Positions 7,659-11,218 of a DNA stretch of 33,655 bases are shown piece after piece. The notes below the pieces were generated by a model. It did no database searches. It had not been told where the DNA came from and worked only from the letters and a program-made list of their open reading frames with translations. The DNA is from Candidatus Kaiserbacteria bacterium (lineage in GTDB: Bacteria; Patescibacteriota; Minisyncoccia; Phycocordibacterales; Phycocordibacteraceae). A program made the translations under genes and the position numbers. The stretch lies in contig DRNP01000005.1 in NCBI GenBank assembly GCA_011322135.1, positions 1 through 33,655 on the forward strand, given 5' to 3'. The first letter of the stretch is position 1. Each line of letters starts with the position of its first letter.

Positions 7659-7685
7659 ATGTGTTCTATTGCGTTCCGCCTATTC
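7659..7685 (+). other. 5' strand of 16S precursor processing stem
   Basis: ATGTGTTCTATTGCGTTCCGCCTATTC is the reverse complement of 10411-10437 with one mismatch. Confidence 0.88.
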
Positions 7686-8144
7686 TTAATGAGAGTTTGA
7701 TCCTAGCTCAGGGTGAACGCTGGCGGCGTGGATAAGGCATGCAAGTCGAACGGCCCTTCGGGGCAGTGGCAGACGAGGTAGTAACATGTAGGTACGCACC
7801 CCATGGTCGGGCATAGCCAGCCGAAAGGTTGGGTAATTCCCGATAGTCCCGCGAGGGTAAAGGTTTTTCGCCATGGGAGCGGCCTGCACAGTATCAGCTA
7901 GTTGGTAGGGTAAAAGCCTACCAAGGCTACGACGCTTAGGGGAGCTGAGAGGCTGACCCCCACCGATGGGACTGAGACACGGCCCATACTCCTACGGGAG
8001 GCCGCAGTCGAGAATCTTCCGCAATGGACGAAAGTCTGACGGAGCGACGCCGCGTGCTGGATGAAGTTCTTCGGGACGTAAACAGCTTTTATGTGGGACG
8101 AAATTTTTGACGGTACCATATGAATAAGGGGCTCCTAACTCTGT

Positions 8145-9265
8145 AAACATAATAACGGTTAGGAATATAAAGGAACTCTGTAAGCGAAAGCTTGCTTCAG
8201 TGGCGCTCGGTCGAAATGAGTACAGACACTCATTTCGACCCTCGCTTCTTGAAGTAATTACCTGGTGCAGCACTCGTGAGCAATTGCGAGTGGGAAAACT
8301 TGGCTATATGTTCCCGAATTGTCTTACATTGAATTTTTATTTGATGTGAGCCAACCGACCATGAGGTCGGTAGGTATACAAATCGGGGAACTCGTTGGAA
8401 GCAGCTTGGTCGAAAGACCAAAACTGCGTTTGACCAATGGGGCTGGAAATCTCTTGTGATCTGCATTGAGACATAAAATATGTTTCAAGCACAAGAGACA
8501 ATCAGCAGGGAAGTCGGGTATACTTAATAAATGGTTGGTAATCTTTCTAAACTGCAACACGATATACTTATCGGTCTTATACTTGGAGATGGATATCTCG
8601 AGTTTAATGGCTATAAGGGGACACGGTTGCAGGTAAAACAATCGGAGGAAAAGAAAGAGTATGTATTTTGGTTATATGATCATTTTGCAAAACTCACACG
8701 AACTCCTCCGCAACAACGGCGCGACACAATGCAGTGGTATTTTGGTACACAATTTTTTACGGATTTTGAGGAAATACGAAAGAATTTCTACGTAAATCGT
8801 ATAAAACATGTACCGGAAAATATTACTGAATTGTTTCAATCGCCACTAACACTTGCTGTATGGTTCATGGATGATGGACGACTTGACTATAGAGTAAAGT
8901 CACATTATGCCTACCATATCAGTACTGATTCTTTCACAGAGTCAGAGGTGCGACAGTTGCAAGTATTGTTACAAGAAAGATTCGGCATAACAGCAAAAAC
9001 TTATTTGTCGTTATGTCGAGGGAAGCGATATCCGAAGCTTTATATTGGAAAAGAAGGACGTGACATGTTTACAAAAACAGTTGCGCCATATATTCTCCCT
9101 TGCTTCAGTTACAAACTTCCACCAAATATGGAAAGTATATCTTGACCCCTCAGAGACTACACGCCGAGCTCCAATTCTAGTGTGAAAATTAGAATTGGAT
9201 GATGATATAGTCCGATCCTCATAGCGATGTGAGGGCATGTCCAAGCGACATGCCACAACAAGATG
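8145..9265 (+). other. Group I-like intron in 16S helix 18 (insertion after E. coli position ~516; boundary uncertain by about 4 nt)
   Basis: ~1.1 kb insertion splitting CTAACTCTGT / GCCAGCAG; P7-like GAGACTACA ... GATATAGTCC near 3' end; two 3' hairpins; internal LAGLIDADG ORF. Confidence 0.85.
8531..9145 (+). CDS. LAGLIDADG homing endonuclease (intron-encoded)
   Basis: Two LAGLIDADG-type motifs: LIGLILGDGYLE and LAVWFMDDGRLD. Confidence 0.92.
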   Translation: MVGNLSKLQHDILIGLILGDGYLEFNGYKGTRLQVKQSEEKKEYVFWLYDHFAKLTRTPPQQRRDTMQWYFGTQFFTDFEEIRKNFYVNRIKHVPENITELFQSPLTLAVWFMDDGRLDYRVKSHYAYHISTDSFTESEVRQLQVLLQERFGITAKTYLSLCRGKRYPKLYIGKEGRDMFTKTVAPYILPCFSYKLPPNMESIS

Positions 9266-9293
9266 GCCAGCAGGAGCGGTAATACAGAGGCCC

Positions 9294-9326
<33 letters not shown>

Positions 9327-10410
9327 TGTCTAGGCGGTCATATTAGTCTTTTGTAAAATCCGGGGGCTCAACCTCCGACCTGCAAGAGAAACGGTATGAC
9401 TAGAGGATATGAGAGGTACAGGGAACTCATGGTGTAGGGGTGAAATCCGTTGATATCATGGGGAACACCAAAGGCGAAGGCACTGTACTGGCATATTCCT
9501 GACGCTCACACACGAAAGCCAGGGTAGCGAAGAGGATTAGATACCCTCGTAGTCCTGGCCCTAAACGCTGCTCGCTCGCTTTACGGAGTATCGACCCTCT
9601 GTGAGGCTAAGCTAACGCGGTAAGCGAGCCGCCTGGGTAGTACGAGCGCAAGCTTAAAACTCAAAGGAATAGACGGGGACTCGCACAAGCGGTGGATCAT
9701 GTGGCTTAATTCGTAGCTAAACGAAGAACCTTACCAAGGCTAGAAACCCAACTGCACGCTTCCCGAAAGGGAAGAATCCTTCGAGGGTGTTGGGCAGGTG
9801 ATGCATGGTCGTCGTCAGTTCGTGGTTTGAACTGTTCCCTTCAGTGGGATAACGAACGCAACCCCCGTTGCCTGTTATATATGTCAGGCGAGACTGCTCC
9901 CTCACGGGAGAGGAAGGTGGGGATGACGCCAGATCAGCATGTCCCTTGATGCCTTGGGCTGCACACGTGATACAATGGTTGGTACAGAAAGATGCAATAC
10001 CGTAAGGTGGAGCAAATCTCGAAAACCAGCCTCAGTACGGATTGAGGTCTGCAACCGACCTCATGAAGATGGAATCGCTAGTAATCGTGGGTCAGCTATA
10101 CCACGGTGAATACGTTCTCGAGTCTTGTACTCACCGCCCGTCAAGTCAAGGGAGCTGGGGGTACCCGAAATTCCACCTTGCGTGGAACTACGGTAAATTC
10201 AGTAACAAGGACTAAGTCGTAACAAGGCACGGCTAGCGGAAGCTGGTCGTGGATCATATCCGAATGGAATTGATGACTTTGAAAAAAGCATCTTGTCGAT
10301 TATGTATCTTCGGATACATAGAGGAATGACACTCACCTCTAAATGGTGTCCGGAAGCCGGAATGCCGTTACCGGTGCTCCTCGGAGTGCTCATATGACAC
10401 TCCGAAGAGC

Positions 10411-10437
10411 GAATAGGCGGAACGCAAGAGAACACAT
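10411..10437 (+). other. 3' strand of 16S precursor processing stem
   Basis: GAATAGGCGGAACGCAAGAGAACACAT pairs with 7659-7685. Confidence 0.88.
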
Positions 10438-10439
10438 AC

Positions 10440-10470
10440 AAAAAGCGCGCGACTACGTCGCGTGTTTTTT
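10440..10470 (+). terminator. Rho-independent terminator of 16S transcription unit
   Basis: AAAAAGCGCGCGAC-tac-GTCGCGTGTTTTTT, ~14-bp stem with 2 G-U wobbles plus T run. Confidence 0.85.
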
Positions 10471-10520
10471 GGTGCAGTTGAAAAAAATATGACATGTTTC
10501 AATAGCTACATCTAAATGGG

Positions 10521-10813: not shown

Positions 10814-10887
10814 GCGAGTGTAGCTCAGGTGGTTAGAGCACTCCCCTGATAAGGGAGAGGTCCCAGGTTCGAGTCCTGGCACTCGCA
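10814..10887 (+). tRNA. tRNA-Ile (anticodon GAT), CCA not encoded
   Basis: Acceptor GCGAGTG/CACTCGC, anticodon stem-loop CTCCC-CTGATAA-GGGAG, T-arm CCAGG-TTCGAGT-CCTGG. Confidence 0.95.
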
Positions 10888-11218
10888 CAAAAATAACGAG
10901 CACGATGCGGATGCATCGGGCGAATGTATTTTTGTAGCGTGTGACGGACTCGAACCGAGTCGTCGCGAAGCCAGGCGAGCAAAGCGAGCCTGTGACGACG
11001 AGTGGGGGTAGAGGGAGCGAGGTTTTTATGAACGCAAAGCGTGAAATAAAAACCCGCGAGAGTGACCGAGTCCTAAACAATGCAGGCACCAAAAATAAAA
11101 TAAAGAAAGCATGAAGGTGCGTTTGTGTCGCGCTCGCTTCGCTCGCGCGATTTGTGCATACAAAACTTTTCCACTGTACAAAGGTATGGACAACTCAGCA
11201 TTACTGTATACTAAAGAT

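Follow-up and report, generated by a model that had tools for sequence, protein, structure and literature searches.

Introduction

The CCUCC tail of 16S rRNA ranks among the best-conserved elements of the bacterial ribosome, and most bacteria use this anti-Shine-Dalgarno (anti-SD) sequence to find gene starts. Its loss had been recorded in scattered symbionts, mycoplasmas, and some Flavobacteria. The locus described here raises the question of how start codons are chosen in a lineage without this sequence. The window, which is the whole stretch of 33,655 nucleotides that was analysed, belongs to a Kaiserbacteria-type member of the CPR, from an order of tiny uncultured bacteria. Its genome (G000) is a draft of 656,807 bases in 46 contigs and is 95.2% complete.

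The 16S rRNA gene and its 3' end

The 16S rRNA gene comprises two exons matching Rfam RF00177. These exons, the intron, the 3' element with its pseudoknot, both strands of the closing helix, and the terminator-like hairpin described below are on the + strand. The upstream exon is located at 7686-8172, with an approximate 3' border taken from the alignment, and the downstream exon at 9263-10256 (882 bits; approximate 5' border). The latter includes helix 45 (about 10230-10250) and GGATCA (10251-10256). Positions 10229-10266 read ACGGCTAGCGGAAGCTGGTCGTGGATCATATCCGAATG, in which the conserved helix 45 and GGATCA are followed by TATCC at 10257-10261, with no CCTCC after it. In the RNA, helix 45 and GGAUCA are thus kept and are followed by UAUCCGAAUGG, at the position where E. 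coli 16S exhibits CCUCCUUA. A sequence-only reading of this DNA had claimed that a conserved helix 45 precedes a tail devoid of the anti-SD; the first part is borne out at 10229-10266, and the second is confirmed both by the absence of CCUCC here and by its order-wide absence in relatives, described below. The same reading had asked for a second 16S copy, with CCUCC, to be sought. This search was run on the whole G000 genome (95.2% complete draft) and no second 16S was found. The 16S gene of the window has a good RF00177 score along its length and, judging from its sequence, looks functional.

The 16S and 23S rRNA genes are unlinked, the 23S being located on another contig (G000 C30:3892-7449). 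Downstream of the 16S, a hairpin followed by a T run (10444-10471) resembles a terminator at the end of the 16S transcript. This is a weak call, made by inspection of the sequence, and the pattern scan lists this stem on the opposite strand only. A lone tRNA-Ile(GAT) is found further downstream, at 10814-10888.

The exons are separated by a group I-like intron (8173-9262, borders approximate), which carries a LAGLIDADG endonuclease ORF at 8531-9145 (Pfam LAGLIDADG_2, E 1.2e-33). The RF00028 match, at 9052-9234, reaches 36 bits (E 3e-7), which is under the gathering score of 50. Many relatives exhibit introns at other 16S sites, as seen from their split 16S matches. The 530 loop (~8150-8170 and 9263-9285) exhibits GGA where GCC is usual, which disrupts the usual 515F primer site. 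This change recurs in relatives, with GGA in 46 sequences (some of them repeat copies of one genome), GCA in 10, and GCC in 4. GGA is found in Kaiserbacteria, GCA in the other families of the order, and GCC further out. The opposite strand of the 530 pseudoknot, as read from the alignment, is also altered, from GGC to UCC, and this second change would apparently restore the pairing with GGA.

Distribution of the loss among relatives

The alignment of 16S 3' ends with relatives, which the sequence-only reading had proposed as a check, was performed on a first set of relatives from the genus and the order; the 3' end could be read in about 45 of them, and none of these exhibits CCUCC. An exact pattern scan retrieved the identical UAUCC tail in 51 separately assembled named records, whose titles refer to Kaiserbacteria, Parcubacteria, Paceibacterota, Patescibacteria, Nomurabacteria (one case), or just to a bacterium. 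The presence of the same tail in dozens of separate assemblies rules out chance or misassembly, and with it the assembly error at the tail that would have refuted the original observation.

In a larger sample of the order, comprising 297 genomes, the tail was readable by pattern in 164, and only two of these had CCTCC (G013 C6:260-305, L244, and G652 C30:2607-2652, L245). These two copies, together with the fragmented state of the window's genome (46 contigs, 95% complete), are what can be said in favour of an artefact, be it an assembly error, a pseudogene, or a missing second 16S copy. However, both copies exhibit a helix 45 unlike that of the order and match the order's 16S only over short stretches or at low identity; they are likely, although not proven, to be mis-binned contigs. 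In addition, the tail recurs in independent assemblies, the 16S of the window scores well throughout, and its 530-loop change is common to relatives. An artefact is, in our opinion, hardly conceivable.

In the class sample, CCTCC was present in 52 of 241 genomes, a readable tail being available in 119. The class tails without CCTCC include UCUCC, CUUCU, UUUCUU, AUUAAA, UUUCAA, and so on, and the class data suggest that the anti-SD has eroded repeatedly. In the phylum sample, GGATCACCTCC was found in 110 of 241 genomes. In a 16S tree of 42 sequences, 24 sequences with non-canonical tails form one group (94/99), which includes the window's order and is nested in a class having canonical members. 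On the basis of these sequences, the anti-SD of the window's clade was apparently lost once, deep in the clade. The tree requires at least one further loss, and one family (f31) is mixed, with CCTCC in G134 and G390 and TTTTT in G488; a further loss probably occurred elsewhere in the class. The class families beyond the window's clade exhibit UCUCC, CUUCU, UUUCUU, or UUUUU tails.

A conserved structured element follows the 16S rRNA gene

The tail constitutes the first arm of a conserved structured 3' element of ~180 nt (10257-10437), for which covariation and folding indicate six hairpins and one pseudoknot, inside a leader-trailer helix. The segment at the anti-SD position (10257-10268), delimited by sequence comparison, consists of UA and then a small hairpin, UCC (10259-10261)/GGA (10266-10268). 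This segment is invariant within the genus, and the hairpin is UUC/GAA and similar in the other families of the order. According to an alignment of 42 Kaiserbacteria genomes, from which the structure was derived, the UCC/GGA hairpin lies directly after GGAUCA and is accompanied by five more hairpins and the pseudoknot. Standard pairs occupy 97.4% of cells, versus 76.6% in shuffles and 35-44% after a shift of the structure by 1-3 columns. Changes on both sides are seen in 382 cells, versus 113 in shuffles. The element of the window folds with -65.5 kcal/mol (z -5.2). No Rfam family matches positions 10257-10437 at gathering score (Rfam 15).

The pseudoknot (10321-10339) is supported by covariation and pairs GAGG at 10321-10324 with CCUC at 10336-10339. 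Across the 42 genomes, the first strand is GAGA or GGGA, or GAGG as in the window, and its partner is UCUC, UCCC, or CCUC; columns 85 and 102 form A-U in 25 genomes and G-C in 17, without exception. Some other pairings were discarded. The RNAalifold pairs 9-11 with 192-194 never vary, and the pairs 50-51 with 86-87 clash with the better-supported pseudoknot; both were replaced. A GGAU-AUCC fold, which had been put forward as a means of hiding the tail, is not supported either: only 9 of the 80 distinct tails can form it, and it is the 3'-ward hairpin UCC..GGA (UUC..GAA in relatives) that is conserved.

The element ends in a long-range helix. Its 5' strand is in the leader (7659-7685) and is complementary to the 3' strand at 10411-10437, with a score of 24 over 27 nt. 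In the window, the leader strand stops 6 nt short of AGAGTTTGATC; more generally, the last strand of the element, GAATAGGCGGAAC..., pairs with a leader ending 5-6 nt before AGAGTTTGATC. This helix, mostly of 16-27 nt (about 19-27 bp), occupies the same position in nearly all Kaiserbacteria tested. As the leader-trailer pairing flanks the element, the whole element is inside the pre-16S processing stem.

Conservation is higher at unpaired positions (0.84) than at paired positions (0.73) of the element. It is unbroken from the 16S to about +180 and falls to background level about 200 nt past GGA. The apical loop of the last hairpin (10385-10395 in the window) is a palindrome of 6-10 nt in 41 of the 42 genomes, with CAUAUG, CAAUUG, or CACGUG as its core. 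It looks as if it were selected for self-pairing (dimer) or as a special tetraloop, and remains unexplained.

Origin and fate of the element

Those relatives in the class that keep CCUCC likewise have an extended trailer containing GTCGAT and hairpins, and their leader-trailer stem is located 177-222 nt past GGA. Where the tail is near-canonical, the anti-SD segment forms the 5' side of the hairpin CUCCUU/AGGGAG; the hairpins of other tails are CUCUUU/AAAGAG, UUCUU/GAGAA, UUCA/UGAA, and UCCA/UGGA. The simplest reading is that a precursor hairpin was retained while the letters that pair with the SD were free to vary.

These trailers bear on the fate of the element. It is likely that the element is a trailer present in the precursor only, which guides 16S processing or assembly and is then removed, so that the mature rRNA ends soon after GGAUCA, with a non-SD tail. 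The homologous-looking trailers of CCUCC-keeping relatives and the position of the element within the leader-trailer helix both favour this interpretation, as trailers inside such helices get removed. Nevertheless, the loops of such trailers are not usually so conserved, and there is no direct evidence of removal.

Alternatively, the element could stay in the mature 16S and provide the small subunit with a new 3' domain, close to where the mRNA exits, which would take over part of the anti-SD work (mRNA docking or start-site accessibility). The purifying selection on the structure, stronger at unpaired positions, would fit such a domain, as would the continuity of conservation from the 16S to the end of the element, the drop thereafter, and the location inside the processing stem. 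The exonuclease content is a further point in its favour. The five order members tested encode an RNB-type exonuclease but are devoid of RNase PH/PNPase domains, whereas the two canonical class relatives tested exhibit an RNase PH/PNPase domain and no RNB exonuclease (G000 C40:20145-21125 and G390 C1:407039-408397, respectively). This is suggestive of an altered 3' maturation in the order, but the comparison covers only seven genomes and is confounded by relatedness. In contrast, the structured GTCGAT trailer and its stem are also found in CCUCC-keepers, and these presumably have a normal mature end. A structured trailer within a stem is therefore not sufficient to infer retention; moreover, RNase III, YbeY, and the RNB exonuclease are present. 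We therefore regard retention as rather unlikely. The corresponding view of the ribosome is just as tentative: the mature small subunit would carry a pseudoknotted 16S 3' extension of ~160-190 nt in place of the anti-SD tail, unseen in other bacteria, and would take part either in initiation without the SD or in the pairing of subunits, the latter idea being prompted by the palindromic apical loop.

Whether the element is removed or retained, the mature 16S is without CCUCC, although the mature 3' end is only inferred, in the absence of RNA data.

Translation starts and Shine-Dalgarno use

Start regions were analysed over the whole G000 genome, on 226 ORFs with ATG as the first start and no second start within 12 codons. 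These were obtained by simple ORF calling with exclusion of ambiguous starts, and the true start codons are unmapped. SD-like 4-mers were present at -18 to -5 in 9.3% of the starts, versus 7.5% +- 1.5 in shuffled sequences (z 1.2), and in 15.5% further upstream. The same-genus genome G030 gave 21.7% versus 21.9%. When E. coli was treated in the same way as a positive control, with only 28 starts, 46% had an SD-like 4-mer, versus 28% +- 8 in shuffles and 3.6% upstream, and G reached 50-54% at -8/-9. The control thus works, and the lack of SD enrichment in G000 supports the earlier inference, drawn from the tail alone, that initiation does not use SD pairing.

The leaders of G000 are instead poor in G (down to 6-14%) and rich in A (up to 35-49%) between -12 and -4. 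U is found at -1 in 63% of the starts and A at +4 in 44%, versus 29% and 26%, respectively, at internal in-frame ATGs. The U at -1 is weak in G030 (31% U, 38% C), and this bias may partly reflect composition. As the initiator-like tRNA of G000 exhibits A37, a U(-1):A37 pairing is possible.

In principle, the anti-SD function could reside in a different segment of the tail or element, CACCUCU at 10334-10340 being one example, with the mRNAs carrying a corresponding non-standard SD. The CCUC at 10336-10339 of the window is what makes this conceivable. However, this nearest CCUC is locked in the covarying pseudoknot and is not conserved, being UCUC or UCCC in relatives, and is thus not a displaced anti-SD. 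In addition, none of the 158 5-mers complementary to the tail or to the next 180 nt was convincingly enriched upstream of the starts, the best one occurring at 8 of 226 starts, and G is depleted there. An alternative anti-SD is consequently very improbable.

G000 encodes IF1, IF2, IF3, bS1, KsgA, YbeY, and RNase III. A basic protein of 85-97 aa, encoded next to a ybeY-like gene (G000 C29:8354-8644), gives a weak Ribosomal_S21 match (20 bits, cut-off 27) and is a possible diverged bS21. The presence of bS21 was rejected as a correlate of the tail, its weak matches being spread across 162 of 241 class genomes with no clear link. The best match for Era is a GTPase that matches MMR_HSR1 but for which no KH domain is reported, and it was not considered as Era; most CPR are without Era (PMC10582724).

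G390, the one CCUCC-keeping relative of the class sampled for start regions, shows no SD enrichment either (14.6% versus 14.3%). Since this genome has the anti-SD yet does not appear to use it, SD disuse probably predates the loss of the anti-SD, an inference based on this one genome. The loss in the rRNA may then be a consequence of SD disuse and not its cause.

Proposed mechanism

Taken together, these results make it very probable that the whole order has genuinely lost the anti-SD, that this loss is ancient and inherited, and that start codons are selected without pairing between mRNA and 16S. Ribosomes would most likely select starts via A/U-rich, G-poor 5' regions, bS1, and IF1-IF3, the role of bS1 being inferred. 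The pairing of the initiator tRNA with AUG may be extended by U(-1) against A37, which is likewise an inference. With selection for SD pairing gone, the segment after GGAUCA would have been free to change, although this order of events is deduced and not observed. The changed segment would have continued to form the 5' side of the hairpin that opens the ~180-nt trailer, within an RNase III-type helix.

Comparison with known systems

The loss of both the anti-SD and SD motifs was described in 15 organisms (Lim et al. 2012, PMC3522020) and later in 128 (Amin et al. 2018, PMC6107228). These organisms are mainly Flavobacteria, Mycoplasma, and Carsonella, and they resemble the present case in the lack of a CCUCC 16S copy, the lack of SD-like motifs before genes, and their reduced genomes. 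By the definition used there, the organism of the window qualifies, with a sole CCUCC-less 16S, no SD-like motifs, and no alternative SD. In contrast to those cases, which are scattered, the present one concerns an order comprising numerous families and extends to groups adjacent to it in the class. It also differs in that the 16S is directly followed by a structured and conserved RNA element.

In Bacteroidota, CCUCC is kept and is sequestered by bS21, bS18, and bS6; these bacteria share with the window's organism SD-independent initiation, A-rich 5' regions, and Kozak-like positional effects, but their reported determinant is A at -3, whereas the bias in G000 is U at -1 (PMC9976891, PMC6847099). 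Sequestration of this type does not apply to the window 16S, in which CCUCC is absent. To our knowledge, no long conserved 3' element of such a kind is known for mammalian mitochondrial SSU rRNA. The latter is similar in that helix 45 is kept and the anti-SD absent, but belongs to an organelle (PMC10582724).

The long leader-trailer helix around the 16S resembles the usual RNase III stem of bacterial pre-16S, and an RNase III gene is present, cleavage itself being inferred. Unlike in the usual stem, the stretch from helix 45 to the stem is ~160 nt long, strongly structured, conserved, and pseudoknotted. The E. coli 16S trailer is about 33 nt.

A literature search retrieved no paper on anti-SD loss in Patescibacteria or Parcubacteria, although earlier notice elsewhere is not excluded.

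Significance

While anti-SD loss is known elsewhere, what is new here is a very broad and ancient case tied to a new conserved RNA element. The anti-SD is missing from a multi-family order and from a large part of a CPR class. The natural series CCUCC, UCUCC, CUUCU, UUUCAA, and UAUCC raises the question of what holds the anti-SD in place, as well as that of how start codons are located in its absence. Existing metatranscriptomes allow a direct test of the structured element that has taken the place of the tail.
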